Shown here one piece after another: positions 5,901 through 52,050 of a stretch of 64,000 bases of DNA. Origin of the DNA: Isoetes taiwanensis (taxonomy: Eukaryota; Streptophyta; Lycopodiopsida; Isoetales; Isoetaceae). The notes under the pieces are model-generated. The model made no database searches. It saw only the letters and a list, made by a program, of their open reading frames with translations, and was not told the DNA's origin. Position 1 is the stretch's first letter, and each line of letters starts with the position of its first letter. Location of the stretch: contig JAJEKV010000001.1 of the NCBI GenBank assembly GCA_021234155.1, positions 1,921,927 through 1,985,926 on the forward strand. Reading direction: 5' to 3'. Made by a program: the position numbers and the translations under genes.

Positions 5901-7573
5901 TGTGACGTCCCCTACTGTGATTATCTGGCGACTCCGCAGGTATACAAGCAGGAGTTCATCCCCATACCAGCTCCATGCCATCTGTGGGGCCCTCCACATA
6001 ACTTCAAGAACCGCGGATCGGTTCCAGTGGGAAGAGTGAAGGGGTCATTTTACCCCGTCTCCCTCAGGGCCTACCTAGCTGCAAAAGCGTAAACATACAT
6101 GTCGTTATATAACATAAGCACATATCCACCTCGAAGGGTGGTCCATCCTATCTCTGCATAAACAAGGTGAGCACAATACATATGGGGAGTTCTACCCAAG
6201 GCTCGGACTCATGGGGATGACCGGGACGGCTTGGGTCTCGAGTTCCCTTGGGGACGTAATTCATGGCAATGGATTTGGCTGGCATATGAACATGGCATAG
6301 GGTTGTCCACTCCATCCGCCCCTCCTGTGCACACTTTGCAGAGTAGGCTGAAAAGTGTCGGGACCTGACTGTAGCCCGCCGGATGCATAGCCAAAAGGGC
6401 TATTCCTGGGTTTCATCCTCCCGGTTCGATGGGGCGAGGGAAGGGATCACTCCCTCCGAGAGATCTACATCTTGACTCAAAGGTGACTAGAGGGCCTTTG
6501 CCCGTGATTCGAGTGAACCCACTGGAAAGTGTATACCACTTCACGGGTGTCGAGTCCATGCCTCACCACTTTTCAGTGGTGAGCCATTAGACCTAGTCAC
6601 AATGATCCCTGGTAGGCCTTACACACCAGAGGGATCGTTCAAGAGTCAGGACATGAACCTCCTTCTTAGCCAGTCTGGCCCCTTCACCCACAACCAGGTG
6701 TGGTTCTTGTACCAAGGCGAATCTATAGTGTGCTAGAGAGGCTACTCTAGGAGCATCTACTACCAAGCTTTAGGTCTCTACCCCCTTCCCAATACAAGGA
6801 GTTCATAGAGATACATCATCCATATACATCACGTAAGAACTAAAGAACTATATCTAATCTACATCATAGAGTTAGGTTCTTTAGTTAGAGGTCGGGTATC
6901 TAAAGATCTAGAAGGCTGCTATGGGCAATTTAATAGGCTAAACCTACTGATTCTATATTTGAATTAGGGTTTTAGACTATCTAATTGGCCAAATACCTGA
7001 TCCTTGAGTGGCTCCTCGACTGAGCTCGACCATCCCTTTTTGGCATTTCGAATCGAGGGAAACTAATGGTGCAATTCTCTCGGCGAAGTGCGGGGGGCGG
7101 GTTTTGGTGTTGAGGCAGCCAAAAGCGGGGGTTCCAAAACCCTAGAAACGAAAATTGGGCAAGTTAGGGTTTCCCTCCCTTAATAGACAAGGGGTTGGCT
7201 AGGGTTTCCAATTATCCCCTTTAGGCATGTGGGATAATTGGTAATGGGCCCACTTGCCTTTAATGGCTAGGTGGCAAAATGTGCCCACATGGAAATGTGT
7301 GCCCACATTAATGTGTACATTGGAAAATGTGCACATTAATTGGTACCTATAGGTGTGGCCCACTTGGCATCAAGTGTCCACATGGAAATGTGTGCCCACA
7401 TTAATGTGTACATTGGAAAATGTGCACATTAATAGTTGCACATATTCGCACGCGTTGCCCCCTAGGGCTACCCACGGCTGCGTTAGCGTGTAACGTCGGT
7501 CGAGTGGCGTTAATGCGTGTGACGGCGATGCGATGATCGTCCCGGGACCGTATATCGCGTCCGGAACGCCACA
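5901..7573 (-). repeat. 3' LTR of the gypsy element
   Basis: Direct copy of 17756-19418, with small indels. On the plus strand it opens TGTGACG and closes CGCCACA, giving the TG...CA ends of an LTR. It contains an internal direct repeat near 7270-7435 (about 100-bp period) built on CCCACATTAATGTG. Confidence 0.92.
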
Positions 7574-7587
7574 TTCTCCCCACCTTG
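7574..7587 (-). other. Polypurine tract
   Basis: On the minus strand AAGGTGGGGAGAA directly abuts the LTR start TGTGGCG. This is the expected plus-strand primer of an LTR element. From 7588 to 8450 I see only untranslated sequence between this tract and the end of pol. Confidence 0.8.
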
Positions 7588-8450
7588 AAATGATCTTTGT
7601 CCGCAGCAGATCATTGGGCCTCCCCACCTTGGGATCATCCTGCAATCAACCTGATGCATACTATAACTACTATAATACTTACACATTTATTAAGATTACC
7701 TTAAGGTAATATTTTTAGGACATTATCACGCCGTTATATTATGAAATAACTTATCAATTCATAACATCATTAAAAGAGGTTACTCAATAATTCACTTAAC
7801 ATGACAATTAAGTTTATCAAATTAAAATTAACGTCCGAGGTACTCTTCATTCCTTGCAACACATTCCAACAAAATTTGTGTTGCAAGTCTTCGTAGCTCG
7901 ACCTCCTTGCCCTCCGGAGCGCTCTATTGGCCTGCAGGTCGACACTACGTTAGTACCATTTTAATTATTAATAAAATTTTGGTTATATGGTGACCAACCC
8001 ACCTATCTACATGGATGCATGGCTAATCTCCCGGCGTAGGAAGAGGGTGAATCTTCCATTATGGCCGAGGAGACAGCGCCTATATGCCTATATGCCGCTC
8101 ATGCCTACACCCTAGTTGCCCAGCGTGGAGGATAGGTCCTTCCCGTATATGGGGCGTGAAGGCCTGATTCCTCCTATCAAAGCATATATGGGGCTAGAGG
8201 TGCTTTTCCTACCAGTGCATTCCTTCATGACCTCCTTTCTCCGAGGTCGTCTACTTCGATGGGGGCAGTAGACTTTCTAGTCTACCTTCCACTTTCGCCC
8301 AGCGAAAGCGGTCATGCCTACATTGACATTATACCTGCGCCCTAGAGATCCGTAGTGGTCTCATCGCCAGTCACAACGCATGCGACCCATACCTAGCATA
8401 GGTTGCATCGTAGATTAATCTTAACTATACATAGAATTAATCTACACAAA

Positions 8451-8735
8451 TCAACATGCACGGGCGATTTCTTGGAGATGACCTTGCCGTCCCATTGCTC
8501 CATAAAGCGTGGGTGCTTGCTTCACTAAATCTTTCTTAAGTACCCATGTCGCGTCTTCCAGCGGTAAGTGTTTCCACTTGACCAAATCTTTGGAGGAATT
8601 CGATCTCCTCATTTTCTTGAAAGCTTTATCAAGAATCAATTGCGGAACTATTTCGGTTGCTCCTCCGTCATTTCCAACAACGTTGGAGAGTCCAAGACCG
8701 TGCGGATTTGGAGTGTGCTTCTTCAACAAACTCAC
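8451..8735 (-). pseudogene. Integrase C-terminal chromodomain
   Basis: The frame reads VPQLILDKAFKK, then KDLVKWKHLPLEDATWVLKKDL. The ILD...LVKW(K)xLP(x)E(D)ATW pattern is the chromodomain at the end of chromovirus integrases. In the family it steers integration to chromatin, in several cases through H3K9 methyl marks. Two Trp residues of the usual aromatic set are visible (VKW and ATW). The first aromatic seems to be missing, as in the divergent plant group. This frame is shifted from the integrase core upstream. Confidence 0.8.
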
Positions 8736-8966
8736 GTGGAAGACCTTATGAATCTTTAGGTGTCTTTGGCAAGTCTAGCTTGTAGGATTGATTACCTACT
8801 CTTGACTATTCGGAAAGGTCCGGCCCACCTTGGAGCAAGCTTCTTGCAATTCGGGTCGAAGCTTCACCGCTTCACCTTGATCTTGAGCCAAACATCCTCT
8901 CCAACTTTGAACTCTCTTAACGTTTCGATGCTTGTCGGCGATGCTCTTACGTCGACTTCTTTCTTG

Positions 8967-9700
8967 CTAGCAAATACCCTCGAACTTCTTCCACGAAGTG
9001 CCGCATATGGGCCAACATCTCGCTTGCCGAAACTTCCACTTTTTGACGGGGTTGTGCCAAGTGTCTGGAGTTAGGCACTGATAGCCGTAATTGATCATAA
9101 ATGGCGACATTTGGGATGATTCCTGCTTGGTGCTATTGTATGCAAACTCCACCAAGTGAATAAATTCTTCCCACATACCTTGCTTATTCCAGACATAGTT
9201 TCGTAGCATGTCTTCTAAAATCCTGTTGGTCCGCTCCGTTTGGCCATCCGTCTGAGGATGATATGCCGTGCTCATGGATAGCTTTGTCTGAATGGTCGCA
9301 AAGAGGTCTTGCCAAAAGGCGCTCATGAACTTCGGATCCCTGTCGGAGATAATCTCCCTTGGCATGCCATGAAGCCTGAAGATCTCTTTGGTGAAGAGCT
9401 TATTTGTATCCATAGCCGTATTCGTGGTCCCCGCAAGGCACAAAATGTGCCATTTTCGACAACTTGTCGAGCTACTACCATCAAAGCATCTTTCCCTCTA
9501 CGGTCCTTGGGAGTCCCGTGATGAAATCCATCTTTGATCAGCGGCTCTAAGGCCCCCGGAATTGAGCTGTTCCGCTTTGTCTGGCCGACATAGGCGGCAT
9601 TCCTTGATGTAGCGAGCTACTTGCTTCTTCATTCACGGCCAATAATAGGCTGCTGCGCTTTTGAAATATGTTTTCATGAATCGCATGGCCAGCTATTGGG
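8967..9700 (-). pseudogene. Ty3/gypsy integrase (zinc-binding and catalytic core)
   Basis: The core frame (8967-9443) reads GMPREIISDRDPKF and then MSTAYHPQTDGQTERTNRIL. These are the second Asp and the catalytic Glu of the D,D-35-E integrase. Upstream, in other frames (9560-9690), YYWP and CRLCRPDKAE mark the end of the H2C2 zinc-binding domain. Stop codons between the two blocks, and the frame change before the chromodomain, show decay. Confidence 0.88.
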
Positions 9701-9837
9701 TTGTTGTCGCGTGTCATGGATGATCAATTTCCTTACACGATGATTGAGGCACGCACAACTTGTTCTTATGGTATAACAGGTTGCCTTCCTTCTTATAATG
9801 TTTAAAGGCTTCCCGCTCCTTATCATTTCTAGCCTCC

Positions 9838-10267
9838 TTAGAGGCTTGCCCATACTTCCTTGAAGTCCCACATCCGTTGGCAAGGACTCTTCAACCTTCT
9901 TACCAAAGTCATTTGGAGGCGTCGAAATTGCATTGCAATGCACTCTAGTTGTCGGGGATGCCTTGAAAGCGCATCCGCTACCACATTGAGCTTCCACGGC
10001 TTGTAGACTATAACAAAGTCATACTCTTCAAGGAACTCCATCCACCTTCTCGCCTCGGGTTGAGGTGTGGTTGCGTGAATACATCTTTGGAGGCTCGATG
10101 GTGCGTATCCAACTGGAACTTCCTTCCCAAAAAGATAGTGCCTCCAAATTCTTAATGCCCACGACAACCTTAAGCAATTCCGATCGATGGGTGGGGTAAG
10201 CGCGTTCGGCGTCGTTCATCTTCCACGGAATCATCGCTACCACACGCTCTTCTTGCCAAACCCGCAC
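9838..10267 (-). pseudogene. Ty3/gypsy RNase H
   Basis: In overlapping frames, YPTHRSELLKVV, EEYDFVIVYKPWKLNVVADA and LSRHP follow the usual Ty3/gypsy RNase H order: the E/A..Y..H..ELLA block, then W..LEEYDF, then NVVADALSR. The enzyme removes the RNA strand during reverse transcription. At least one frameshift lies between the blocks. Confidence 0.8.
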
Positions 10268-10597
10268 TGTAGCTATCTTACTTCGCGTCTGTCGCTACAA
10301 GCTTGTCTTTCTCTGCAGGTCAGTGCGAAGGGGTTAAAGGCGGTTGTTAAAGCTTCCTTCAATAATTCAAACCACCGCTTGGGCTTTCTTGTGCCAATGC
10401 TCTTGCCCAATCTTTCACTTTCTCCGCCCTCATGAAGTCATTAGCGGGGGGCGCTATCTTAGCGAAGTTCTTCACGAATTTCTGTAGTACCCGCTAAGCC
10501 GAAAACTTCGGACTTCATGCACATTCTTCGGGCGCTTGGACCCCTTGAATAGCGGCTTCAATCTTGGTAGGATCCGTCGAGATTCCTTCTGGCGAGA

Positions 10598-11103
10598 TCA
10601 CATGACCAAGGTATTCCACCTTCTCCCGCGGAAGTGACACCCGACAACTTTGGCGCATAACTGGTGCCTCTTCAACTTCTCTAGCACTCTCCTTAAGTGT
10701 TGTGCGTGCTCTTCAAGGGATACGCTATACACGAGAATGCCATCAAAGAATACAATCACAAAGGTGTCTAAAACTCCCGAAGATGTCGATTTCATGAGCC
10801 TCATGAGCGTCGCGGGGGCATTCGATAAGCCGAAAGGCATTACCGGAACTCATAATGCCCATACCGCGTTCAAGAAGGGTCTTATGGATATCTTCTTCCT
10901 TTATCCTGATCGATGATAAACGACCTTAAGTCGATTTTGGAGAAGACCTTTGCACCTTGGAGTTGATCCATCAAGTCATCCCGATCCGGGGGCGCATATT
11001 TGTTCTTAATGGTATGCTTGTTCAAGCGCCTATAGTCTATGCACATCCTTAAAGCGCCTTCCTTCTTCTTTACAAAGAGAATGGGCTCCAAATGGCGAGA
11101 CAC
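10598..11103 (-). pseudogene. Ty3/gypsy reverse transcriptase, catalytic motif altered
   Basis: The first piece (10882-11103) reads [20 protein letters not shown], then [10 protein letters not shown] and KIDLRS. The second (10598-10840) reads MPFGLSNAPATLMRLM and VFFDGILVYS. The usual (Y/F)xDD catalytic pair is here FFDG: the codon at 10739-10741 reads Gly, so the second catalytic Asp is lost. A frame change separates the pieces. It could not have worked as written. Confidence 0.88.
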
Positions 11104-11239
11104 TAGGTCTAATGAAGCCTAGGGTCGAAAGCAACTCCGCAATTGCTTCTTCAGCTCGTCAACTCCTCGCGTCATTCCGTGATGGAGCCTTGCTTGCCCG
11201 CTTTGCTCCCGGTTGAGTGCTATCTCACACTCGACTTCC

Positions 11240-11965
11240 CTATAAGGCTTTAAGTCGCTTGATCTCGCCTCGGAAAGAGATCATGGAACTCGTGATCAGC
11301 TGAGCTATTTGCTTTGGCAACTTGCCGAGCACCGCCATCTTCTTTGCTTTCCTGCTTTCGTGCTCGTCAATCTCAAGCTTGAAGATGTATGCCACCTGTT
11401 CGCTCTTGATGCAATTTGAGCGGTACCGCTTAGAAGACATGCATCGCATGATGGGAACAACTTCTTTACCTCGCGTGATCTCGATGATCTTGCCGGCCGA
11501 AAGTGTTGGGAAGGTCACCTTCCGCTTTCCACAATCGATAATGGCCCCGCTGGTCCAAGGTACTCCATTCCTATGATCAAGTTGTACTTGCCAATGCCCA
11601 TTATACGCCCCCATCCGGATCTTAATCCCCGGCAAGTCGATGTCGGTTAATTCTCTTGGGCAGCCGCGCCTTCTTGCACCACTTGCTAAGACAACGGGCC
11701 TTGGCTTGGACTTTAGCGGTTTCAACTTCAACATTTGAACCATTCTGGGGGATGCAAAGTTATGGCTACTTCCCGAGTCTATCAAGACTATGAAGGACTT
11801 GGCCTTGGCCTTCCCTACTGTGGAGATTACTTTATACTGGCTCTCTGCTTGCTCTGTATCTATTGCGGCAAAGATATGACACTCACCCTGAATGTAGTCG
11901 CGGCCTTCCTCGCCGTCGTCGTCAGACAGGATGTCCCAATCTCCCAACTCATGCCGTATTTGCAC
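11240..11965 (-). CDS. Ty3/gypsy aspartic protease region
   Basis: A 241-residue frame carries the retropepsin active site LIDSGSSHNFASP (D-S/T-G) near residues 55-67. After it comes a Gly-rich flap-like region, and an IIDCGKRKVTF block that often precedes the RT in this superfamily. In the family it cuts the Gag-Pol polyprotein. It lies between gag (frame ends at 11991) and RT, as expected. A start cannot be chosen, since the domain is normally part of a polyprotein. Confidence 0.8.
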   Translation of the reverse strand: MQIRHELGDWDILSDDDGEEGRDYIQGECHIFAAIDTEQAESQYKVISTVGKAKAKSFIVLIDSGSSHNFASPRMVQMLKLKPLKSKPRPVVLASGARRRGCPRELTDIDLPGIKIRMGAYNGHWQVQLDHRNGVPWTSGAIIDCGKRKVTFPTLSAGKIIEITRGKEVVPIMRCMSSKRYRSNCIKSEQVAYIFKLEIDEHESRKAKKMAVLGKLPKQIAQLITSSMISFRGEIKRLKAL

Positions 11966-11990
11966 TCATGACGTAAGGGGCGTTCATGTT

Positions 11991-13136
11991 CTATGGCTTT
12001 GGCTGGAAGCTTTGAAGCAAAGCCGCTTTTCTATGCATTCTGTCTCTTTTCCTTGGGCATCGCTTTTGCAAAAGGATCGCCTTTGCTTTGGAGTAGTTTG
12101 ACCCCTCCTGCTTGTCCTTGAAGGACACCGCTTCTTCCTCCTGTTTCCCACAGTTTGCCACCACCATATGGGGCTCTATTTGGACACGGGTGGCTGCCCT
12201 AGGGCTATAGCTTCCTGTCGCCTTGCCTTTGTCACCGAAATGCCTGCTGCCTGGGCTATTCTGAGGTCCCGTCCCTTGCAAGCTTATAACCTTGGACTCT
12301 GCTTCTGATACTGTCTTAGGGTTTATTGCCCTCACAAGCTTGCGGATCTCCTCATTCAGCCCCTCAATATAGCTTTCTACCGCATGCTTCTCACCCAACT
12401 TTGGCACATACAGCCTCAGTCTCATGAATTCCTCTGTATACTTCTGGACAGATTTGTTGCCTTGCTGCAACCTGTAGAACTGCTGCATCATGCTGGACTT
12501 ATGTTCCCTCGGGACGTAATGGCGCTTGAAGGCTTTAGCAAACTTTCTGAACTTACAAGCATCCCTGCTTAAGCCATGTGCCTTTGCATAACCCTTCCAC
12601 CAAATCCGTGCGGCTCCTTTCAAGTTGGCTGTTGCCACTCTTCCTTTGTCTTTATCCTTCATGCCATAAGCATTGCCGTACTCACTCATTTCGTCCAGCC
12701 ATGCCTCTGCTTCTAATCCTGACCTGTTCTCCCCCGAGAACTGTTCCAGTTTCCGGGCCTTCCATACATTGCCCAACGCGGAATCTACTTTCTTCTGGTA
12801 GTCAGAGGCCCTGGTGTCTCTTTGTCGTCCATCTGGGGTGTTCCTCTGCCTTCCCTCTTCAGTGTTCCTTTGCCTTGCGTCTGTTCGGTCCTGGGCCTGA
12901 TCTTCTTCTTCCTCGGAGTCGGAGTCTGACTCTGAGCTTGAGTCGGAGGAGTCCGAGCTGGGGGATCTTCTTCTCTTGCTCCTCTTCTTGTCTCTTCCTG
13001 TTTTCCGAGCTGATGCTTGTGGCAATTGAGCATTGCCCACCGAACCCGCTCCTGCTTGTGCGGCTAACAGAGCCTTTATCTGCTCAAGGTCCGTCCTCAT
13101 CTGGGATATCTCCTCCTCTGGGGTCATGGGTTCCAT
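11991..13136 (-). CDS. Gag capsid protein
   Basis: An open frame of 381 codons from an ATG at 13136. The N-terminal 100 residues hold a Lys/Arg patch (RKTGRDKKRSKRRRSPSS) next to a Ser/Asp/Glu run. Residues 145-290 match the retrotransposon Gag fold pattern: AWLDEMSEYGNAYG, ARIWWKGYAKAHG, FAKAFKRHYVP and a QxxRSVxxYTxEFxxL-like QGNKSVQKYTEEFMRLRLYV. A CCHC zinc knuckle is not clear; the C-terminus (KRCPRKRDRMHRK) may be a broken one. This is the longest intact gene of the element, so it decayed less than pol. Confidence 0.85.
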   Translation of the reverse strand: MEPMTPEEEISQMRTDLEQIKALLAAQAGAGSVGNAQLPQASARKTGRDKKRSKRRRSPSSDSSDSSSESDSDSEEEEDQAQDRTDARQRNTEEGRQRNTPDGRQRDTRASDYQKKVDSALGNVWKARKLEQFSGENRSGLEAEAWLDEMSEYGNAYGMKDKDKGRVATANLKGAARIWWKGYAKAHGLSRDACKFRKFAKAFKRHYVPREHKSSMMQQFYRLQQGNKSVQKYTEEFMRLRLYVPKLGEKHAVESYIEGLNEEIRKLVRAINPKTVSEAESKVISLQGTGPQNSPGSRHFGDKGKATGSYSPRAATRVQIEPHMVVANCGKQEEEAVSFKDKQEGSNYSKAKAILLQKRCPRKRDRMHRKAALLQSFQPKP

Positions 13137-13404
13137 ATCTTCAAATAGGTTCCTTGCCGGGGGTGGTCAGGGATGCATTTCTTCCCTAAGGTCTTGGCGT
13201 TGTCGTTCCCCTGAGCCTAGGCCTCTAACTGCATACACAAGTAATTCATGGCTATATGGTTAGTTTTCCTTGTTCTCTTGCATTGTTTATGTTTGTTGGT
13301 ATAGTTGTGGGGCAAAAATACATCAACAAAACATTTAAAGTGCAACAGAGATTATATTCATATATTATATAATATTTTAGTACAAAAGTCTCGGGATCAA
13401 GAGT

Positions 13405-14258
13405 CTAACTAATCTTGAAATTGCTTGCATCTGACGGGTTGTCCTCAAGGAACTTCTTAACTTGGGCGTTCCTCTTGAATGACCCAAGTTCACTGAAGAC
13501 GCTGGCGGACGAGCCCGCTGCAAACTCTCGCCAAGTCCTCCACTCTGCGGTCGGATGTGAGGGGCGCGGCCCATAATAATCTGCCGCCGATGAGGTATGG
13601 TAAAGTCGAAGAGATCGAGTGCCATTGCTCTCTTGACTAGGACAGCATAGTGGAGCATTTGCCGCTATTGAGCATGCCTGCGAAGCACGAGAGTGCAATC
13701 AGCATGAACACTCCTTCCTGCGCCCACAGGGCTGAATTTGCGGTGTACCACCGCTATTCTCCCCGTCTAGCGGTGGTGTAAGGGTAGTACCTCGGCGACT
13801 TTGTCGTTGTGCGTCATGGATGATTCCCCGCTTGTTTGACCCCCTGTCTATGCCGCCCTGCATAATCGTCGACCTCGATCTCTGTAAGCTCCCGATAATC
13901 TTCAATTGTGGAGTCGACTCTCCTGAGGTCAATTCCTGCTCCTCTTGTTGGGGTGGTGTTGAGGGACTCGGCATCAGGATGCTAGTGGTCTTGCCTCGAT
14001 CCCCATCCGTTCACGAATGGCGAGGGAACTCTTCTTGGATGGGCGGTCTCGGTCTCCATGACTGCCTTATCTTTGCTGTATGCCTGGATGTCGGAAGTCG
14101 CTTCCCCTGTGTAGGTGTCGGCTTCCCTGACTTGAAGCGGGAAGTCTGAGACTCCCCGGACGATGAAGTCGTCCATGTCGGTCTGCCGCAGTTGGTGGAG
14201 TAATTCGTCCAATCTGAGCTCCCTCTCCACACTTTTCGGGGAAGGTTACGGATGTCAT
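13405..14258 (-). pseudogene. Broken downstream part of the acidic extra ORF
   Basis: Overlapping frames continue directly from the stop of the acidic ORF. Protein-like pieces are ERELRLDELLHQLRQTDMDD, then FIVRGVSDFPLQV and, near the end, ADYYGPRPSHPTAEW and SELGSFKRNAQVKKFLEDNP. They suggest that the extra protein was once longer, or that a second ORF followed. No family is recognised. Below 13404 lies AT-rich DNA (13320-13400), like a plant 3' UTR, and then a spacer up to gag. Confidence 0.45.
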
Positions 14259-15034
14259 TTGAGGAGCAAATACTCCTCTCCGTTGATGATAATTGGGGCT
14301 AGGCTTGTGATGCCTAGCCCGAGTGGGGGAGCAACTCTGATGTTCTGCCGGTTCTGCTCGAAGTTCATCATCTCCTGTTCTGCTTGTTGCCGTTCCTCCT
14401 CTGAGTCGAGCTCCGTGTACTTATCGTCGTCGGACTCCTCTTCTTCATCGTCTTCTCCTTCCTGCTCTTGCTGATACTGCAAAAGCATCTGCTCTTCTTC
14501 CTGTACTGCTATGGGATCCACCTCCATTGGAGGAATAGAGGTTGCCCCCATTGGGTTTTCGGCACGGTGGGATAAGAAAATGGCTAAAGCAGCGGTGTAG
14601 GAGAAGTACTTGGTCCTGTTAGCTGTCAGGACCATGTAGTCGGGTAGCCTCTGCGCTTTGTTGGTTAAGTACTTGGCGATGTTGGGGACATCACCCAAGG
14701 CTGCTTGAAGGGATTGGCGGGGAACAAAGTATCCTATGCAGGGGGGAACCTGGACAAGGGAGGGTTCTACCCTAGCTTGGAACTCTGCTAATACTTGCCT
14801 ATATGCTGGGGTTGCATTCAGCGTAGCTTGGATATCAATTTCCTTCCCGAAGACGCGGAAGATGTCATCGACATCTGCTTCGGCAAAGATGGGCACGGGC
14901 GGCGCACCATCACCCATCGGTGGCCATTGATCTAGCAAGGAAGGGAGTATCAAGCGAATCGCCAGCGCCGGGGATTTGGAAGATAAGCAAAGCAAAGGGT
15001 CGGGGGATTCACCTTTGATCACCGTATAACCCAT
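14255..15034 (-). CDS. Extra ORF 2: protein with acidic C-terminal segment
   Basis: ATG at 15034-15032; 259 codons to a TGA at 14257-14255. I do not recognise a family. The first two thirds look folded (FAEADVDDIFRVFGKEIDI, then FSYTAALAIFLSHRAENP). Residues 174-225 are strongly acidic and Gln-rich, with runs such as EGEDDEEEESDDDKY. The end is hydrophobic (IIINGEEYLLLK). Acidic tracts of this kind occur in histone-binding proteins, but that link is only inference. The ORF lies on the gypsy strand between the PBS and gag. It is preceded by a TATA box and by two palindromes, the same plan as extra ORF 1. Confidence 0.6.
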   Translation of the reverse strand: MGYTVIKGESPDPLLCLSSKSPALAIRLILPSLLDQWPPMGDGAPPVPIFAEADVDDIFRVFGKEIDIQATLNATPAYRQVLAEFQARVEPSLVQVPPCIGYFVPRQSLQAALGDVPNIAKYLTNKAQRLPDYMVLTANRTKYFSYTAALAIFLSHRAENPMGATSIPPMEVDPIAVQEEEQMLLQYQQEQEGEDDEEEESDDDKYTELDSEEERQQAEQEMMNFEQNRQNIRVAPPLGLGITSLAPIIINGEEYLLLK

Positions 15035-15285
15035 GAGAGTTCAACGGAGGGGTGTTTTTTGGACCATTTGTGTACGTATACTTAGGGGTTAGGGGTGTTT
15101 TTAGGCACTGATTTGGAGCAATATCTATACACAGAGGGGTCAAATTGCCTTTTAAAATTGCGTATACAAGGGGGTTTTTTTGCTACCCTCCGAACGCAGA
15201 TGCCATACCCCCCTTATGTATAAGTGCATCCCCCGGGAGCAGTGGAGAGCAAACTTGCAGGGTGCTAAATGAAAAATGATGGGCC

Positions 15286-15312
15286 TATTTATAGAAAAGG
15301 GAAAAACCCTAA
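15286..15312 (-). promoter_or_regulatory. TATA box and telo-box upstream of extra ORF 2
   Basis: On the minus strand TATAAATA (15293-15286) lies about 250 bases before the ATG of extra ORF 2. The telo-box-like TTAGGGTTT (15312-15304) lies just upstream. The pair resembles a plant pol II core promoter. Transcription is not shown. Confidence 0.5.
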
Positions 15313-15471
15313 TTTTTGGATGACCTAGAATTTGCTGGAGTTGGGCGATTCTGACCTATTAGGAGGTGCAATTGAGGGTTTGAAGGCTGATTTTTGGTTT
15401 AAAGCATGCTAAGAACAACTAATGAACCTATTGCAACAACCGGAGGTCATTTGGTGAAGAAAATGGTGCGA

Positions 15472-15737
15472 GGTCTCACCACGTTGCTTGAACCGATTTT
15501 GAGAAGTTCATTATCCGCCTGGGCGGCGTGTGAGACATGGGTCCTAAATGGGCTAAACTTAATCAATTTGGGTAATTTAAGGCTGTAATTCCACTAAACT
15601 CGTCGAGTTACGCAGAATTGACCCCTTATTTGGTCGATTTGGAGTAGCTTTGGGCACTTTTGGGCATGGTCTCACACGTTGAGCCCAGCCCGAAAATGAG
15701 AATCTCATTTTTACGTCCGGCGCGACGTGTGAGACAT
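15472..15737. repeat. Two copies of a nested-palindrome element (copies A and B)
   Basis: Copy B (15669-15735) has outer arms GTCTCACACGT and ACGTGTGAGAC, an 11-bp perfect inverted repeat. Inside it sits AAAATGAGA-A-TCTCATTTT. Copy A (15472-15536) keeps the outer GTCTCAC and GTGTGAGAC with a decayed centre. Copies C and D lie at 17279-17550. Each pair sits upstream of one extra ORF, on the far side of its TATA box. Confidence 0.75.
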
Positions 15738-16073
15738 CGTCTCAATTTTGCTCAAAACTCCAATTTTATCAAAACAAAAGCTAGAATTCTATATCTTAAC
15801 TTAATTAAGCTAGATTAGACATATTATTTATCCACAAAATTCTTTATATTAACAAAAATTTCTGTTATTTACAAAAATCTCAAGGCGTTCTCCCTTGATG
15901 TGCGGGCAAGATACATATCCACGCCTCATGAGGGTAACCCTCTTGGCGTGTCTTGGCGGCCGCCGAATCTTCAAAATGCTGCACTATTTTCGCCTCCGCA
16001 TTTGCCTCCCGTAGTTAATGCGGCATGACATCTCGTCGGTTACTCGCGATGTCGTGTTGTACTCTGCATGACT

Positions 16074-16922
16074 TCACCGGACCAAGCGTTGGAGGCGGTG
16101 CAGAGGGATCAAGAGTCCGTAACTCTTCGGAAGTGCGGATCTCCTTGAGAGCTCTCGTCCTCCGACTTCTTCTTCTTGCCGCTTCTTCCACGGTGCTTTC
16201 GGGGGAGGCTTGGGCTGGGTGGTGGCGGCTTCAAGGTTTGGCTTCTTGTGGGATGTCGCCTTGATTGTTCTCACCACTGTGCTCTGGTAATAGGCATTGT
16301 AGGCCTCCCGCCCGCCATGTAAGCGTTGTGCTCCTTGATCCTCTTCGATAGACCCTTACGGGGTCTATCACATAACTTTCCCGTTGCGGCGCGGGGCTTT
16401 GACTCTGTCCCGTCGGGGAATGGTGGGGGCCTTGCGGCTGTCCAGCTGCTGCCCATCGGCGCCACCGCTTTCGGGTACCTCCTTCTCCACAGGCGGGGTT
16501 TTGAAGAGCTCGCCCCTGCGGGTTGGGGGCGTAATCCTCGTCCGAATCGTCGGTGGAAGGCGGGGTCTCTTCGCCGATGGTTCGTTGATGGCGGGGCCCA
16601 CCGGCTCGCTTCCGGCCTTCACAACTTTTCTTACGCCGCGCCTTGATGCCCTTGGCCTTCCTCTTCGGACCCCGGCTATGTCTTCGGTTCTTAAATCCTC
16701 TGCTCCCGTGGCGCTCCTTGTCTTCATACTTGCGATGAAGGCGGAGGTCCGCTTCTTCAGCGGGGTAAGCTTTGGCGAGCTTTGCTCTTGTCTCTCCTCC
16801 TCCTCTTGCGAGGCCGGGCCTAAGCTTCGATTTGTTGTTCGAATGATCATTTGTCCCCTCTCGCTCCGTTCCTCCCTGCTTCTCCTTTCCTCCTCGTGAT
16901 CTCTTGAGGATTTCTTTTGCAT
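16074..16922 (-). pseudogene. Continuation of the basic extra ORF 1, frameshifted
   Basis: Three frames in turn (16922-16368, 16465-16271, 16277-16074) keep one character: rich in Arg, Lys, Pro and Ser. Examples are GRPRASRRGVRKVVKAG, the NLS-like AKRPRLPP, and KPPPKAPWKKRQEEE-type segments. The frame alternates between two registers, which fits two small indels in one long basic protein that began at 17101. No enzyme domain is seen. AT-rich DNA with AATAAT motifs (15760-15860) follows on the minus strand, like a 3' UTR. Confidence 0.5.
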
Positions 16923-17101
16923 GATGTCCGGGCTCCTCCTCTATGATCTCCGTCGATCGCTCCGGTCGAAGTCATCCCCCTCGCTGATGAAGATTCCCCG
17001 ATTGAGAAGGCATTCGAAGTGCCCTTTGAATGTTGGGGTCCTCTGGCGTTGGAGGATGTGCTTGGGCGAGGCTTTCTAGCAGTTTGTTTCGTAAGGGCCA
17101 T
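16847..17101 (-). CDS. Extra ORF 1: basic protein with a histone H3-like N-terminus
   Basis: The first ATG of the frame is at 17101-17099; the in-frame sequence upstream has no ATG. Its context is good (A at -3, G at +4). The protein starts MALTKQTARKPRPSTSS. Without Met this is A-L-T-K-Q-T-A-R-K-P, against A-R-T-K-Q-T-A-R-K-S of histone H3, so Lys4 and Lys9 fall exactly in place. The similarity stops at residue 9. The rest is Ser/Gly/Arg-rich, with no histone fold. The frame runs 84 codons and then passes to another register in a broken basic protein (16922-16074). It lies on the gypsy strand, just inside the primer-binding site. Capture of an H3 5' end or convergent mimicry are both possible. 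Confidence 0.65.
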   Translation of the reverse strand: MALTKQTARKPRPSTSSNARGPQHSKGTSNAFSIGESSSARGMTSTGAIDGDHRGGARTSCKRNPQEITRRKGEAGRNGARGDK

Positions 17102-17194
17102 GTTCGACGGTTCGCCGTCGGAGTTCGCGCCAAAAGATCGCCTTGGCAAGGAGGCGAATTTTTCTAAGCGGTGGTGAAAATGGGGGTCGAGGTC

Positions 17195-17202
17195 TATTTA
17201 TA
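17195..17202 (-). promoter_or_regulatory. TATA box upstream of extra ORF 1
   Basis: TATAAATA on the minus strand, about 94 bases before the ATG at 17101. It matches the octamer before extra ORF 2 exactly, including the leading C and trailing G (CTATAAATAG). Confidence 0.5.
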
Positions 17203-17278
17203 GGGGCAATTTTTAGGTCAAACTTGAAACTACCTTTTAGGTTATCTAGAGCACCTAAAACACCTTAATCTAAGCAAA

Positions 17279-17550
17279 GGTCTCACCGTTAAGCCCAGCC
17301 CGAAAATGAAAAGCCCATTTTCTGTCCCGGGCGGCGTGTGAGACATGGTGGAATCCACTATCAATTTTGCTACTTTTTAATTATGTAACTTGCTAATTTC
17401 TCTTTGATTCTTAGCTCTAATTTAGAATTATCAAGCTATTTTCTTGTAATTTACAACTTTTGGTGTGTTTAATTTGAATGTCTCATCAAGTTTGGCCCGG
17501 CCCAGAAAATGAAATTCTCATTTTACGTCTGGCGCGACGTGTGAGACCAT
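17279..17550. repeat. Two copies of the nested-palindrome element (copies C and D)
   Basis: Copy C (17279-17349) and copy D (17479-17550) share GTCTCA at the left, GGCCCGGCCC or AAGCCCAGCCC, then AAAATGAAA..TCTCATTTT-type centres and GCGTGTGAGAC or GACGTGTGAGAC at the right. All four copies point the same way. Outside the four copies I did not find this element in the window. Confidence 0.75.
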
Positions 17551-17743
17551 TCCTACTTTTGGATGTTGGCTCACCAATTCTTAATCTTTTTATGTTTTCA
17601 TTCATTTTAAGCTGTTACTAGCTTAGCATAAACTACAAAAATGAGAAAATTTTTTCCCATTTTTCGAGGTTTAAGAATCCTATCAGGTTAGTACTACTTG
17701 GGGACATGGCGATTGCTTTGCTCTTGGTCCCCAAGAACCTCGA

Positions 17744-17754
17744 CTCTGATACCA
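17744..17754 (-). other. Primer-binding site (initiator tRNA-Met type)
   Basis: On the minus strand TGGTATCAGAG follows the LTR end after one base. This is the usual PBS of plant LTR elements primed by initiator methionyl-tRNA. Confidence 0.85.
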
Positions 17755-17755
17755 C

Positions 17756-19418
17756 TGGATGGCCCCTACTGTGATTATACGGCGCACTCACCGTATACAA
17801 ACAGGGAGTTCATCCCCATACCAGCTCCATGCCGATCTGAGGGCCCTCCACATAACACCGCAACCGCGGATCGGGTTCCGAGTGGGAAGAGTGAAGGGGT
17901 CATTTTACCCCGTCTCCCTCGGGGCCTACCTAGGCTAAGCGTAAACATACATGTCGGTATATAACATAAGCACATATCCACCTCGAAGGGTGGTCCATCC
18001 CTATCTGCATAAAACAAGGTGAGCACAATACATATGGGGAGTTCTACCCAAGGCTCGGACTCATGGGGATGATCGGCTTGGGTCTCGTGAGTTCCTTAAG
18101 GACGTAATTCATGGCAATGGATTTGGCTGGCATATGAACATGGCATAGGGTTGTCCACTCCATCCGCCTCCTCCCAGGCACACTTTGCAGAGTAGGGTGA
18201 AAAGTGTCGGGACTGGATCCGAAGCCATGGGATGCATAGCCAAAAGGGCTATTCACGGGTTTCATCCTCCCGGTTTTGATGGGGGCAGAAGGGATCACTC
18301 CCTCCAGAGATCTACATGCCGACTCAAGGTGACTAGAGGGCCACCGCCGTATTCGAACGAACCTTTGGAAAGTGTACACCACTTCACGGTGTGTCGAGTC
18401 CATGCCTCACCCTTTCGGTGGTGAGCCATTAGACCTAGTCACAATGATCCCTGGTAGGCCTTACACACCAGAGGGATCGTTCAAGAGTCAGGACATGAAC
18501 CTCCTTCTTAGCCAGTCTGGCCCCTTCACCCACAACCAGGTGTGGTTCTTGTACACAGGCCGAATCTATAGTGCGCTAGAGAGGCTACTCTAGGAGCATC
18601 TACTACCAAGCTTTAGGTCTCTACCCCCCTTCCCAATACAAGGAGTTCATAGAGATACATCATCCATATACATCACAGAAGAACTAAAGAACTATATCTA
18701 ATCTACATCATAGAGTTAGGTTCTTTAGTTAGAGGCTGGTATCTAAAGATCTAGAAGGCTGCTATGGGCAATTTAATAGGCTAAACCTACTGATTCTATG
18801 ACTGAATTAGGGTTTAGACTATCTAATTGGCCAAATACCTGATCCTTGAGTGGCTCCTCCTGACCTGAGCTCGACCATCCTGCTGAAACGCTCGAATCGA
18901 GGGAAACTAATGGTGCAATTCTCTCAGGCAGAGTCGGGGAGGCGGTTTTGGCCGTTGAGGCAGCCAAAACAGGTTCCAAAACCCTAGAAACGAAAATTGG
19001 GCAAGTTAGGGTTTCCCTCCCTTAATAGACAAGGGGTTGGCTAGGGTTTCCAATTATCCCCTTTAGGCATGTGGGATAATTGGTAATGGGCCCACTTGCC
19101 TTTAATGGCTAGGTGGCAAAATGTGCCCACATGGAAATGTGTGCCCACATTAATGTGTACATTGGAAAATGTGCACATTAATTGCACCTATGGGTGTGGC
19201 CCACTTGGCATCAAGTGTCCACATGGAAATGTGTGCCCACATTAATGTGTACATTGGAAAATGTGCACATTAATAGTTGCACATATTCCTGGCACGTTGC
19301 CCCCTAGGGCTACCCACCTGGCTACACGTTAGCGTGCACGTCAGTCGGAGTGGCGTAATGCGGCGTGGCGGCGATGCGATAATCCCCACGGGACCGTGAT
19401 TACGTCCCGAACGCCACG
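17756..19418 (-). repeat. 5' LTR of the gypsy element
   Basis: Pairs with 5901-7573. Its plus-strand left end TGGATGG borders the PBS. Its right end is CGCCACG, where the partner has CGCCACA, so the terminal base is mutated. The same internal tandem repeat is present (19130-19275). Confidence 0.92.
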
Positions 19419-19421
19419 GCA

Positions 19422-21407
19422 TACATAAGACTACTGAAGTTAAAACGGAATAAGAACCTGCTGCAACATCAATGGGGTATGGCAAAATTGCTGAAGAAAC
19501 AGCCCCAAAGATTTTGGAGGGGATTCAAAGGGAAGGGAGGGGAGAATATGAAAACAGGGAATGAGCAGGACAGTATTGGAACAGCCGGATGGGAGAGATA
19601 CCTGGAGAAATTGTATAAGACAGGGGCACCCCCTGTATCAATACCAATGCTGCAGGATTCAGATAAACCATGCTTCAACATGCAAGAGGTAATGGTAGCC
19701 CTAAACAGGATGGCTAACCACAAAGCCCCGGATCTATACGGTCTGACCGTGGAATTACTGAAATGTGCTAAGACAGAAATTGGCAGACAGGTCATGGACA
19801 TTTTCAACGGCATAATACATACAGGGCTTCCAGATAGGTGGACATACAATAGAGTCATACCTCTACATAAGGCAGGAAGCAGGCAAGATCCAGGAAACTA
19901 TAGAACAATAATGGTGAGTTCCATTTTCGCAAAGTGGTTCGGAAAGGCACTGGATAACAAATTAAAGAAATGGGCAGAAAAGGGAAACATGAGAGCACAA
20001 GGGCAAGCAGGGTTCAGGCCGGAACACTCAACCATAGACCATCTAGTAACCCTTCGGATATTAACAGAATAGAACAAAACACAGGGAAGAAAGATCATCT
20101 GCTGTTTTGTAGATTTCAGAAAAGCATTCGACACAGTCCCGAGGGAGAAGCTATTACAAAGGTTGATGGACATGCAAGCCCCAAGAAACATGGTAAGATC
20201 GATTGCAAGACTATACCATAGGGTATATGCCAGGATAGAGCAAGAAGGACAGCCAATAAACTATGACATAGGCGTTAAATAGGATTGCCCGCTATCCCCA
20301 ACTCTATTTGGGATATACATAGATGCTTTGCAGGGCTACATAGCAAAACATCAAGGGGAAGAATACGCCCCTACGTTAGGAGACACGAAGGTACCGATTA
20401 TGCTATACGCTGATGATCTGAGTATGATGGCCACAAAAAATAAGGAGATGCACAGACTGCTAAAAATTCTAGAACAATTCTGTGAAAAAATCGGGCTAAC
20501 GGTAAATCTAGCAAAAACTAAGATAGTCATCTTTGGCCATAAGAACAGGCATAGACCCTTCAGATATAAGGAAACAGAAATAGAGGAAACTACGGAATAC
20601 AGATATCTAGGGTACGACGCACATGGCATAGGAAAATGGGCTAAGGGTGCAGACACCAGGTTCCAATCAGCTATAGGGAGTTATTTCAATATGAAGAATT
20701 TCTGCAGCAAAAGCAGAATAATTGATTGGGACATCAAATGCTACTTATTCAGTGCAGTAGTAGCTACTACCCAATTATATGGGGCAGAAGCTTGGGGGCC
20801 AGGCCTAACAGACAGAAAATGGGAAAAACAGGAAGGAATCCTAAGGCAATGGCACAGACAGGAATTTAAAGTACGGACAAATACGCCACTGACAATCATG
20901 GTCCTCGAAACAGGGCAAAAACCAATGGAGGTGAGAGCATGGGAGAGGGCCATAAGGTACCTGATTAGGGACAATGCAGGAGAACTCCAGGGGAAATTGT
21001 CTAGTATTGCAATCACCGAGTCAGCAAAATCACACATTCTCATAGGCAACGGATGGTTTAAAGATGTGGCAAATTGGACCAGATAGATGGGATTAAACCT
21101 GAGCGATCTAATAAACGAAGGGCAGTGGAATGAGGAGTGGGCAGACAGAGCCACAAGAGCATGGCTGCAAAAACACACAGGACCCAAGACAACCTGACTC
21201 ATGACAGTTTTTAACCCAGATTAGCAAATAGGACATCAGATGTATCGGGATAACATACTGGGAAAAACCAGAAGAGATATCTTGACTAGATTCAGGATGG
21301 GGAGTCATGATCTGAGAATCGAAAAAGACAGGTGGAGGGGAATAGACAAGGATGACCGGATATGCAGAATCTGTGACAATGGGAGAGTGGAGGATGAGAA
21401 CCCCTGA
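19422..21407 (+). pseudogene. LINE reverse transcriptase and zinc-binding domain
   Basis: One reading frame can be followed for 2 kb. RT blocks in order: NHKAPDLYGLTVELLK, GLPDRWTYNRVIPLHKAG, GQAGFRPEHSTIDHL, ICCFVDFRKAFDTV, DCPLSPTLFGIYIDAL, YADDLSMMA (catalytic YADD), TVNLAKTKIVIFG and YRYLGYDAHG. Near 21365 RICDNGRVEDENP marks the zinc-binding region. The frame is broken by stops, not by shifts: TAG at 20070, 20280, 21084 and 21222, TGA at 21195 and 21405. Several replace a Gln or Arg conserved in relatives; for example K-TAG-DCPLSP stands where RQGCPLSP is usual. Confidence 0.9.
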
Positions 21408-21800
21408 TTAACGATTGCCCGATATACGGAGACATCGAGACAAAATGTAAATATAAGATGGGGGAACCGGGTATATATTCCGATGACAAACGTAATCACC
21501 GAGATTTGGCGACGCGATCCGGTGGAATGATGATCGAGATACGAGAAGTACACAGTGAAAGAGGGTTTCTAATATGAACCGCACAAAAACGGATCATAAA
21601 CCCCATACAAATTGTTCAGTTAAAAGCTGATTGATAACGACGCATCACTGAAGTAAAGCGGGATGCTGGTAATAATAGAAAAAAGTCAGCCTTCAGAAAA
21701 GGCTATATCATAACAGCGTGATGTGCTAGTAGCGCCCTTTTAGGGAGCTCGCCCATGCTACACAAGTCCAGGGGCCTCAGGGCACAAGGGACGTTAATGT

Positions 21801-21872
21801 CTATTCTATTCTATTCTATTCTATTCTATTCTATTCTATTCTATTCTATTCTATTCTATTCTATTCTATTCT
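21801..21872 (+). repeat. (CTATT)n microsatellite at the LINE end
   Basis: About 14 perfect units. It separates the family-A LINE tail from the 5' end of the next LINE. It is read here as the LINE's own 3' tail, possibly expanded after insertion. Confidence 0.85.
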
Positions 21873-23008
21873 CTAGTCAGCAAAATATCAACAGGGATAA
21901 TGCTGAGGCAAAGGGATTCTTGGATATTTTAAACTCTTTGCCTATTAATATTGTTGATCCTTTAAGTGACCAGATTCTAAGAATGCCTTCAGAAGAGGAG
22001 ATCAAGCAAACTCTAAATATCCTGGCTAAAGGAAAGAGTCCAGGCCCTGATGGACTACCCCCTGAATTTTACATTAAATTTTGGGATATTATTAAGCATG
22101 ATCTGGTTCATATGATTAAAGGCTTTTGGTTCTCCAATCATCTGCACCCTGCCTTGTCCTCTGGATTTATTTCCCTTATTCCTAAAATTGATAATCCCGA
22201 GACTTTTAGTGATTGGAGGCCTATATCATTGACCAATACAACTTATAAACTCTGTGCAAAAATAGAATCAAAGGTTTTCTTCAAAAAAATATAAGCTTGC
22301 ACCAATCAGCTTTCTTATCCAATAGGTATATTCTTGACAACTATATAGCAGCTATGGAGGGCATGCATTGGGCTAGAATTTCAAATCAAAACCGTGTTTT
22401 ATTGAAGCTTGACTTTTCTAAACCATCGGCAAGTTGGAAATATTGAAGGATTATGTCTTCCTGATAATGTAAATCAATTATCTTTAATGCAATATGCTGA
22501 TGATTCCTTCAGCTTCTTGAAGAATGAGATTAATAATATTGAATTCTTCCTGAATACCATTAAGGGATTTAGTGTTGCCTCTGGGATCTACCTTAATCAG
22601 CAAAAATGCATCATCCTTGGAGAGTCTAATCGACCTGATATCTTTGGTATTAAATGTTTTGACTTCAGTTATCCTACTACTCTCCTTGGTATGCCTCTCT
22701 CTTTGGACACATCTGTTAAGAATCTCTGGTCTCCCATTGTCTCCAAGATTAGGAGAAAGCTCAATAACTATGGCAGTTGTTTATCTTTAGCTGGGAGAAC
22801 TATCATTGCTAACTCAGTTCTCTCTAGTTCTCATATTTATTTTTCATCTGCTCTTTTGGCTCCAAAATGTATCTATCAGCAGATTGAGAAAATAGTTAGG
22901 AACTATATTTGGAGAAAAAATCACATGGTTAATTGGAACTATGTTACTCAGAAAAAAGATAAAGGAGGGCTTGGTTGTAAAACTTGCTTCTTCAAGGTTA
23001 TGCTTTAG
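21873..23008 (+). pseudogene. Family-B LINE reverse transcriptase with internal deletion
   Basis: The first frame (to 22294) reads GKSPGPDGLPPEFYIKFWD, then FISLIPKIDNPETFSDWRPI and SLTNTTYKL. After a frame change come SAFLSNRYILDNYIAAMEGM and KLDFSK. The second frame (22409-23008) reads LMQYADDSFSFLKN (catalytic YADD), then GIYLNQQKCIILGES, LGMPLS and SLAGRTIIANSVLSS. This is the typical order of the plant L1 RT. The deletion and a stop at 22294 show it is dead. Confidence 0.88.
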
Positions 23009-23121
23009 CAGGAAAATATGTCTGAAAGACTTTATATAATCAGGGCAATCCAGCTACTTCTTTTATCAAGTATTAGCTCCAAAATAGTAGATTTGAAGGG
23101 CACCCCTCAGTCAATCATCAT

Positions 23122-24006
23122 TTGCCTCATTCTGCCTTCTTTGAGCTCAGGCCTGGCCCCAACACCTCTCCTTTAATGAGAAACTTAATTATTTCATGGA
23201 ACAAGGTCTCTAAAGCTTACTCTTATGATCCAATTCTTGATTCTTACCATAACTCTAGTATTTTATGGAATCCTAACTTAGCTTCTCGAGATCAAAGGCC
23301 TTTAGCTCTGAAACATCCCAGAATTTATAGAAAATGGTTGCAAAAAGGTATTTCTTGCTTAGAGGATATATGGCAGGATAATAAATGGATCTCCTGGACT
23401 AGATTCAAATCCAAAATTGGTGGCACTTCTTCTGACAAAATCCTTTTTGATCATATTATGAGATCTGTGAGAACTATTAAGATTGATCCTAATTCAATAT
23501 GTAATATTCATTGGTCTTGTGGAGGTAAGAAAATCTACAAAGTCTCCAACATCTATGCCTATCTAACTCGAGACTTTCCCAAATCTAAAGCTGCAAAGTA
23601 TTGGAATATTAATTCTGATATTGAATCTGTGCTATTTAAAAATATCTGGAGAAATTACTGCCCGCCAAAGGTTGCTTTCTTCACCTGGCTATTAGCTAAT
23701 AAAAGTATCCCTTGTTTGGATCTTATTCACAGAATCTATTCAAGCTCAGATCATGTTATATCTCAACTTTGTCCTCTTGATTGTAATTCCATTGAAAGTG
23801 TCCAGCACATTTTTACATGTCAAAAAATAGATATTCTTTGGGTTTGGATATTAAGCAATTTTGGCATTTCTAAGCCTAAGAATATAATTGATTTCATTTC
23901 CAATAATGAGCCTTTTAGAAATCCAGTCTGTTACATTATTTTATGGAACATTTGGAAACATAGAAACAGGTGTCTCCATGGTGGTCATCAAATTTCTATT
24001 GCTTAG
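23122..24006 (+). pseudogene. Family-B LINE ORF2 C-terminal part with zf-RVT domain
   Basis: A 294-codon open frame. Near residues 175-200, FKNIWRNYCPPKVAFFTWLL begins the zf-RVT domain, followed by DCNSIESVQHIFTCQK and ILWVWIL. The order (W..PPK..FF.W, then C..xE...HIF..C) is that of plant LINEs. It lies in the same order as the shorter remnant at 329-1400. Confidence 0.88.
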
Positions 24007-24068
24007 ATTAAATTTCAAATTATTTATGAACATTGAAATGATGGCTACTGCACACACAAAAAACAAAT

Positions 24069-24641
24069 ATGCTGAAAAATATGACAACAAATGGAATTTG
24101 CTTGGAAATTTTGCTGGTCCTTTTAATAGTTTTAAACTTTATTATCATGATCCTGCTTCTAATTTTGATGCTTTTGTTGCTAGATTACCTTTGGAATTGT
24201 AAGTACAAGCTTGATCTTCAGTATGATAAGGCAGAAGAGGATATAATGGCAAAATTGGAAAACAACAGGGTTGATACATTTCAGTATAATCATGATTATA
24301 GTTTCTGGACTGGCACAGTGAAAGGGCAACTAATGGACAGGCTGAGTGAAGTTCCAGCAAGGGAAATACAATGGGCAGAAGAGTTTTGTAAAGGCACTCA
24401 TCTAATGACTACACTATTCTGGTTCATTCATAGATATGGCAGGGAGATGACTGATTCCCAATTCGAACTCTACAGGGAGAGTTATTACTATCATAGGGAA
24501 AGAGCAGACTGCTTTGGGACTTTGATCCATCTAATGGCCACTTGTAACTCTGTTAGGCTTCTTGAGCTGGTGGACTGGGGGAGCAACCAAATCCCCATTT
24601 ATCAATCCCTCATCCGAGATCATTTCCATTTCCAGGTATAA
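24069..24641 (+). pseudogene. Family-B LINE 3'-region frame, function unknown
   Basis: A 190-codon frame from an ATG, lying between the zf-RVT part and the poly-A tail. Its second half looks protein-like: DRLSEVPAREIQWAEEF, FWFIHRYGREMTDSQF and SYYYHRERADCFG. The element at 1-2306 has a shorter frame at the matching place (1557-1787). It may be the eroded C-terminus of ORF2. I do not recognise a domain. Confidence 0.4.
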
Positions 24642-43143: not shown

Positions 43144-43529
43144 TTAAACACAACTATTGGGTCCAACACATTTAAATTAAAATCCCCCTTAAACCCCCTT
43201 TGGTTTGGGTGCATATTCACACGGGGGGTGACTCCGGGCAACGAGAGTTGTTGGATAGGCATATTCACCCCTTATTCCTTAATCTACACCGTACGTAAAG
43301 TTCCTCGTTTGTGGGGTATGCAAGTACAAAATTTGCTATATATTGTATAACAAGATTCGCAAAATACTATAAAATTTCAAGCTTTAATACTATATGGTGT
43401 TGATTTTTGCGTGCAAAATACAATTATGAGGGCTCACGCCCCACGTCACCCCGTGTGAATATGCACCCAAACCAAAGGGGGTTTAAGGGGATTTTAATTT
43501 AAATGTGTTGGACCCAATAGTTGTGTTAA
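43144..43529. mobile_element. MITE/foldback element, copy 1 of 3
   Basis: Inverted arms of about 90 bp. The left arm reads AACACAACTATTGGGTCCAA, then CACATTTAAATTAAAATCCC and CCTTTGGTTTGGGTGCATAT. The reverse complement of the right arm is nearly identical. The middle holds GGGGGGTGACTCCGGGCAAC and the site CCGTACGTAAAG. Beyond 43529 the outer arm of the longer relative continues in degraded form to about 43690. Confidence 0.8.
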
Positions 43530-44250: not shown

Positions 44251-44293
44251 GTGTTGCCGAAGGGAAACCGCACTCACATGCGCCCTTCAAGCA

Positions 44294-48959: not shown

Positions 48960-48975
48960 ACATTTGAGCTCTTTA
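48960..48975 (+). repeat. Target-site duplication, left copy
   Basis: ACATTTGAGCTCTTTA, identical to 50868-50883. Confidence 0.85.
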
Positions 48976-52047: not shown

Positions 52048-52050
52048 CCC

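Follow-up and report, generated by a model that had tools for sequence, protein, structure and literature searches.

A probable divergent H3-family histone gene, likely a 5′ accessory gene, in a chromovirus-type LTR retrotransposon of Isoetes taiwanensis

The nearest precedent found for the locus described here appears to be a set of hAT DNA transposons of Pyrenophora tritici-repentis, which carry transduplicated H3-like genes (H3L), with 26 copies in the reference genome (excerpts of PMC3538342). Among plant elements, chromoviruses of the Tekay type carry 5′ accessory ORFs (aORFs) with long disordered regions, a biased composition, a predicted nuclear location and an unknown function (excerpts of PMC11728184, where Vandal aORFs are also mentioned; review PMC7264820). 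Maize Grande has an accessory gene with its own promoter, there an antisense gene (excerpts of PMC7264820). Captured enzymes are carried by LTR elements of bdelloid rotifers, described in a paper whose main text does not contain the word "histone" (PMC5408684), and an orchid Ty3/gypsy lineage has been reported with an RNA demethylase in additional ORFs (excerpts of PMC12786077). No LTR retrotransposon with a histone fold was found among the matches listed from the open-licence literature. VANC proteins are anti-silencing accessory proteins of the VANDAL DNA transposons in plants.

The locus was analyzed as one copy in a 64-kb window, i.e. the whole stretch of 64,000 nucleotides under study. 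As in the fungal elements, an H3-like gene was seen beside the mobile element's own genes, its tail contains an insertion, its fold fully matches neither H3 nor CENH3, and a further ORF without known function is present, as in the long form of the fungal H3L (excerpts of PMC3538342). Unlike the multicopy fungal DNA transposon, the carrier is a plant-type LTR retrotransposon, the tail insertion amounts to ~900 nt, and a single copy was seen. With the Tekay aORFs the locus shares the position of an additional ORF in a chromovirus, after the 5′ LTR and before gag (PMC11728184), a likeness that rests on layout and not on a reverse transcriptase/integrase tree. It differs from them in starting with an H3 tail and ending with an H3 fold, whereas "histone" is absent from the main text of both PMC11728184 and PMC7264820. 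The likeness to VANC is one of description: both are accessory proteins of plant transposons and an anti-silencing action is proposed here too, but VANC belongs to DNA transposons and its protection from silencing has been reported, whereas the present carrier is an LTR element for which protection is deduced.

The first-pass annotation of this DNA had assigned the ORF to an LTR retrotransposon. This assignment stood, as an LTR pair enclosed the order from gag to chromodomain and the ORF was additional to the element's normal genes. The following parts were located.

5904..19417, minus strand: whole Ty3/gypsy chromovirus-type LTR retrotransposon, ~13.5 kb (LTR pair; domains in order, some below Pfam cut-offs)
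17758..19417, minus strand: 5′ LTR (blastn against 5904-7572, 90.9% identity; K2P 0.106)
5904..7572, minus strand: 3′ LTR (blastn LTR pair)
17744..17754, minus strand: primer binding site TGGTATCAGAG, which we take to be of the tRNA-Met type (sequence)
11991..13166, minus strand: gag (Retrotrans_gag E 4.1e-18, Ty3_capsid E 1.3e-15)
11240..11965, minus strand: aspartic protease region (RVP_2 E 2.4e-4, 21.3 bits, cut-off 20.3)
10598..11118, minus strand: reverse transcriptase pieces (RVT_1 E 1.6e-10 for 10849-10598; E 4.5e-4, below cut-off, for 11118-10882)
9838..10215, minus strand: RNase H piece (RT_RNaseH E 1.3e-6)
8967..9497, minus strand: integrase core piece, broken frame (rve E 1.1e-4, 22.9 bits, under the 32.6 cut-off)
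8451..8774, minus strand: chromodomain at the integrase C-terminus (Chromo PF00385 E 3.8e-5, 24.0 bits, just under the 25.1 cut-off)

Between the LTRs, gag, protease, reverse transcriptase, RNase H and integrase followed each other in the Ty3 order, with the integrase below its Pfam cut-off, and a chromodomain was found in the expected place at the integrase C-terminus, with a score just under the Pfam cut-off. Judged by its sequence, the element has the layout of a Ty3/gypsy chromovirus. tRNA-Met is the primer of most chromoviruses (excerpts of PMC6317226). An exact target-site duplication of 4 to 7 bases was not found at the element, and scans of the window for Rfam families and tRNAs gave no hits. 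LINE-type coding was observed on the plus strand at 3929-5903 and 19418-24641, with a weak endonuclease match at 4114-5118 (below cut-off), RVT_1 at 20283-21086 and zf-RVT at 23077-24003. Because this coding flanks the LTR element on both sides, the latter seems to be nested in a LINE. The type of LTR element and the zf-RVT domain of the neighbouring LINE both accord with a plant host.

The H3-like gene, accessory gene 1 of the element, lies between the 5′ LTR and gag and begins and ends as follows.

17072..17101, minus strand: H3-tail start MALTKQTARK of accessory gene 1 (reading frame, pattern search, dinucleotide model)
15885..16158, minus strand: H3-type histone fold of the same gene (tblastn, frame-tolerant alignment; eight frame changes and one stop)

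At its start, the letters are as the first-pass annotation had described them. The minus-strand ATG at 17101 opens a frame in which 17101-17072 (ATGGCCCTTACGAAACAAACTGCTAGAAAG) encodes M A L T K Q T A R K, followed by P, and which continues for 84 codons without a stop. In register with the H3 tail ARTKQTARKS, identity extends to 8 of the 9 residues that follow Met (A and the seven-residue run TKQTARK), so that Lys4 and Lys9 keep their H3 numbers; Leu replaces Arg2 and Pro replaces Ser10. The degenerate pattern MA-x-TKQTARK occurred exactly once in the window. Allowing up to three mismatches added no further hit there, and 100 dinucleotide shuffles gave none. The expected number of A.TKQTARK after an ATG was 9.5e-8 under a dinucleotide model for the 2883 ATGs on both strands of the window, a value that goes up if the reader is free to pick any famous motif across many windows. 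The match is not due to chance, because a second, independent H3 match downstream settles the matter.

This downstream match overturned two earlier statements, namely that similarity to H3 ended with the tail, leaving the rest of the ORF without a histone fold, and that the motif was a short H3-tail mimic on a retroelement protein. In a tblastn comparison of H3 with the window, residues 10-135 of H3 matched 16262-15885 on the minus strand in one frame (E 0.001), with filters and composition adjustment switched off and with two stops inside the match. As the stretch is broken, a local alignment was used in which frame changes are permitted but penalized. H3 from helix alpha-N to near its C-terminus was thereby aligned, over several frames, with 16158-15885 at a score of 101, with 46 of 89 residues identical and 16 of the 43 non-identical ones conservative; the alignment contains 8 frame changes and one stop in 274 nt. 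Elsewhere in the window (280 other overlapping 900-base chunks, both strands) the score of H3 did not exceed 43, and 300 shuffled H3 queries gave 52 at most (z 16.8). H4, H2A and H2B had their peaks elsewhere in the window, at 50, 47 and 42. All of these scores rest on a small panel of histone sequences. The H3-family fold was recognized solely when frame changes were allowed, and no continuous ORF runs through it.

Of the other H3-family queries, rice CENH3 scored 91, Arabidopsis CENH3 78 and human CENP-A 64 on the fold. With CENH3 and CENP-A the gene has in common an H3-family fold, a divergent sequence and a variable tail, but the fold is closer to H3 than to any of these three. Going by these scores, it would be a clear member of neither the H3 nor the CENH3 group, though H3 scores best. 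We take the strings LLIP and RVTLMR in the fold pieces to recall plant CENH3, and the start of the gene presumably reads as H3 rather than as CENH3. When the fold pieces were searched alone against Pfam and the PDB set, nothing significant was found; with 44 to 71 residues they may be too short. The best histone in these searches was H3.8 (E 1.3), ranked below an unrelated chain at E 0.21. Searches with the gene revealed no relatives in the protein collection, nor did a pattern search in viral contigs; both collections probably hold few plants. The protein collection seems to be without eligible H3: a query with three 5-residue words present in every H3 returned zero candidates. Queries with accessory gene 2 or gag did not gain relatives either.

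Between the tail and the fold, and around the gene, the following features were recorded.

16159..17071, minus strand: long tail insertion of the H3-like gene, with alternative possible frames (GC, stop-free frames, composition)
15745..15880, minus strand: AT-rich 3′ end of accessory gene 1, putative 3′ UTR (GC 0.21, no CpG)
17480..17548, minus strand: palindromic repeat r1, promoter block 1 (RNA fold z -1.20, not significant)
17278..17348, minus strand: palindromic repeat r2, promoter block 1 (RNA fold z -3.84)
15667..15739, minus strand: palindromic repeat r3, promoter block 2 (RNA fold z -4.98)
15471..15540, minus strand: palindromic repeat r4, promoter block 2 (RNA fold z -2.66)
17195..17202, minus strand: TATAAATA box, ~95 nt upstream of the H3-like gene's ATG, with a putative transcription start (sequence)
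15286..15293, minus strand: TATAAATA box of accessory gene 2 (sequence)

H3 tail and H3 fold share a strand and mark opposite ends of a single GC-rich block (GC 0.58 and 0.55), the fold lying about 0.9 kb downstream of the tail, at the end of the block and about where the AT-rich stretch begins. Because the block that opens with the tail ends in an H3-type fold, descent from an H3-family gene is preferred over mimicry for the tail. Its sequence suggests that the tail probably forms the N-terminal end of a divergent H3-family histone whose tail contains a ~900-nt insertion, and that the motif belongs to an H3-family gene can be taken as nearly assured. To our knowledge, ~0.9 kb between tail and fold is far beyond the length of any H3 tail. 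The inserted part is basic: three stop-free stretches contain 20, 21 and 25% Lys plus Arg, two of them reading one piece of DNA in different ways. It gave no credible family match. The longest stop-free sense frame of 17101-15885 has 246 codons; 6 of 500 shuffles had a frame at least as long. When a codon model was trained on the element's open stretches, gag among them, it classed solely 16940-16414 as coding within the gene, and neither the tail start nor the fold stretch. An intron between tail and fold was also considered. Plant introns are usually AT-rich, and the interval has a GC content of 0.58 (17101-16159), compared with 0.40 in promoter block 1 and 0.21 in the 3′ end; an intron is disfavoured because the interval is GC-rich.

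Upstream of each accessory gene a block was found that contains two palindromic repeats of ~70 nt, ~200 nt apart (17548/17348 and 15739/15540). The two blocks are alike, with 65.5% identity between 17278-17547 and 15471-15735, and below each of them lies one TATAAATA box; the element's minus strand has no others. From their sequence, the two blocks and TATA boxes look like a duplicated internal promoter. Repeat r1 is not special by folding, since its z was -1.20. As a separate observation, the four palindromic repeats before the two accessory genes are putative binding sites for a regulator made by the element.

As read, the frame of the H3-like gene is broken and no translation is possible. 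The two LTRs were used to examine the cause. Their alignment differs in 203 of 1685 columns, and 186 of these differences lie within 3 nt of CG, CAG or CTG (744 columns marked), a number that was not attained in any of 1645 rotations. The difference rate falls from 36% on CG/CHG sites to 23% at 1 nt, 15% at 2-3 nt and 4% at 4-6 nt, and beyond 6 nt, where 7 of 704 columns differ, the LTRs are nearly identical. The changes comprise 85 transitions, 77 transversions and 25 gap events, a mixture that disfavours deamination of methyl-cytosine as their source. Because the differences cluster at CG/CHG sites and are of types unlike deamination, miscalled bases at methylated cytosines, in an assembly from long reads, are the likely main cause of the broken frames, and the element would accordingly be young. 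The fold stretch holds 23 CG and 11 CHG sites in 274 nt and would thus be struck hard by such errors. Because of this heavy error load around CG/CHG sites, the actual genome probably has the gene in largely intact form. The same context undermines the effects that had been ascribed to the two deviating tail residues, i.e. loss of the R2 contacts through Leu2 and loss of the Ser10 switch through Pro10. Their codons lie 2 nt and 1 nt, respectively, from a CG/CHG site, distances at which 15% and 23% of the LTR columns disagree, and therefore neither residue is to be interpreted. CG/CHG-centred errors would also bias the dating of LTRs and the calling of genes in this assembly.

Error by itself does not account for the fold. 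Canonical H3 was subjected to simulated sequencing error at five settings with 150 runs each. Near the LTR error rate, the simulated genes scored 306 to 358 with a mean of 2.6 to 3.8 frame changes, whereas the values observed were 101 and 8. Over the five settings, 0, 0, 0, 0 and 1 of 150 runs scored 101 or less; the single run had a substitution rate of 0.30 near CG/CHG, compared with ~0.125 per copy if all LTR differences are counted. A canonical H3 blurred by sequencing error alone was ruled out by these scores, and because simulated H3 never came near 101 at LTR-like error rates, the histone was deduced to be truly divergent from H3. The 8 frame changes exceed the simulated 2.6 to 3.8, and thus some of the breaks may be due to real decay or to freedom of the alignment; decay may also have contributed to the broken frames.

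The best overall explanation, with a probability of roughly 0.6, is that a plant-type chromovirus carries an H3-family histone gene as a 5′ accessory gene. That this is a regular accessory gene of the element family, and not a passenger of one copy, appears somewhat favoured. The steps from expression to nucleosome assembly and effect are deduced from the anatomy of this copy. The H3-like protein would be made from its own internal promoter and would then pass to the nucleus, where the kept H3 fold could pair with host H4. It would enter nucleosomes as an H3 variant whose basic tail is very long and has an H3-like beginning; as far as the sequence tells, such a use in nucleosomes has a little less than an even chance. 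The N-terminus could be treated as H3 by H3K4/K9 enzymes, and methylation or binding of the tail by these enzymes is possible. Nucleosomes of this kind on element copies or at insertion sites would change how H3K4/K9 marks are read or written, and the element could profit through weaker H3K9me2-linked silencing or marked insertion sites. A bolder version is a long shot: a plant LTR retrotransposon lineage would have domesticated an H3 gene and would build its own nucleosomes, the variant would mark element chromatin or insertion sites and evade the H3K9me2 silencing loop, and it could be the ligand of the integrase chromodomain, i.e. a self-made landing mark.

The gene could instead be a mere passenger: the element would have caught a host gene for H3 or CENH3, or a retrocopy of one, which now drifts without a role in the element's life cycle. 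This is rather unlikely, and it accords with a frame broken more often than simulated error alone gave and with the single observed copy. In plant LTR elements, transduced genes are usually restricted to one or a few copies (excerpts of PMC11963269), and drift was held possible for the fungal H3L by its authors (excerpts of PMC3538342). A recent capture of ordinary H3 misfits the simulations, in which 0 of 150 runs fell to 101 or below at either setting close to the error rate of the LTRs. Away from CG/CHG sites the two LTRs hardly differ, yet the gene is divergent from H3, and capture of a fast-evolving CENH3 or H3 variant is possible. Moreover, the duplicated promoter block is common to the second accessory gene, which points to a settled arrangement. 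The preferred reading as an accessory histone gene also has to be weighed against a decoy role of the tail, whereby the H3-like N-terminus, with or without entry into nucleosomes, would draw H3K9/H3K4 methyltransferases, demethylases or readers off chromatin. The free N-terminus with Lys4 and Lys9 in the H3 register would suit such a role, but a whole fold down to the H3-like C-terminus is needless for a decoy; Arg2 of H3 is a contact for most H3K4 readers, and Leu2, if real, would take this contact away. We consider the decoy distinctly unlikely.

A convergent H3-tail mimic on an unrelated retroelement protein would agree with the 84-codon tail frame, which itself has no fold and whose 84-residue product gave no match to the PDB set by sequence at E up to 10. 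It is made very improbable by the H3 fold downstream in the same block; the motif does not sit on a protein without a histone fold, as a mimic should. A chance match of a short peptide gains a little from the circumstance that any famous motif in many windows could have been picked, but it would have to produce both a tail expected 9.5e-8 times per window and, independently of it, a fold match that follows on that strand as in H3, and its probability is next to negligible.

If other copies keep the gene, this would be a retrotransposon that encodes a core histone variant, a situation that we found described for one fungal DNA transposon only (excerpts of PMC3538342). If the accessory-gene reading is true, at least some 5′ accessory ORFs of plant chromoviruses would acquire a concrete function, and mobile elements would have a new route to act on host silencing, via the changed nucleosome itself. 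Noisy assemblies can hide such genes, as errors at CG/CHG sites break frames and folds then escape ordinary annotation.

The second accessory gene was located downstream of promoter block 2.

13400..15034, minus strand: accessory gene 2, with a provisional start; stop-free over 15040-14255 and broken thereafter, with an acidic stretch (reading frames)

No family match, relative or confident fold was obtained for it, and an AlphaFold prediction without alignment for 218 of its residues had a mean pLDDT of 43.5, too low for use. Another histone is not indicated, as none of the five best H4, H2A or H2B chunks fell there, and paralogy of the two accessory genes was rejected on finding just short or weak matches between them. 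As speculation, an acidic partner beside a basic histone would suit a chaperone. Elsewhere in the window, CGCGGATC, which we take to be the plant histone-promoter octamer, occurs on the plus strand at 6012 and 17865, the only two in the window and one per LTR, which may be chance. An inverted repeat pair with 236-nt arms, 97% complementary, was observed in 45806-46535 and 43147-52531; with related copies nearby, these repeats apparently constitute another repeat family.
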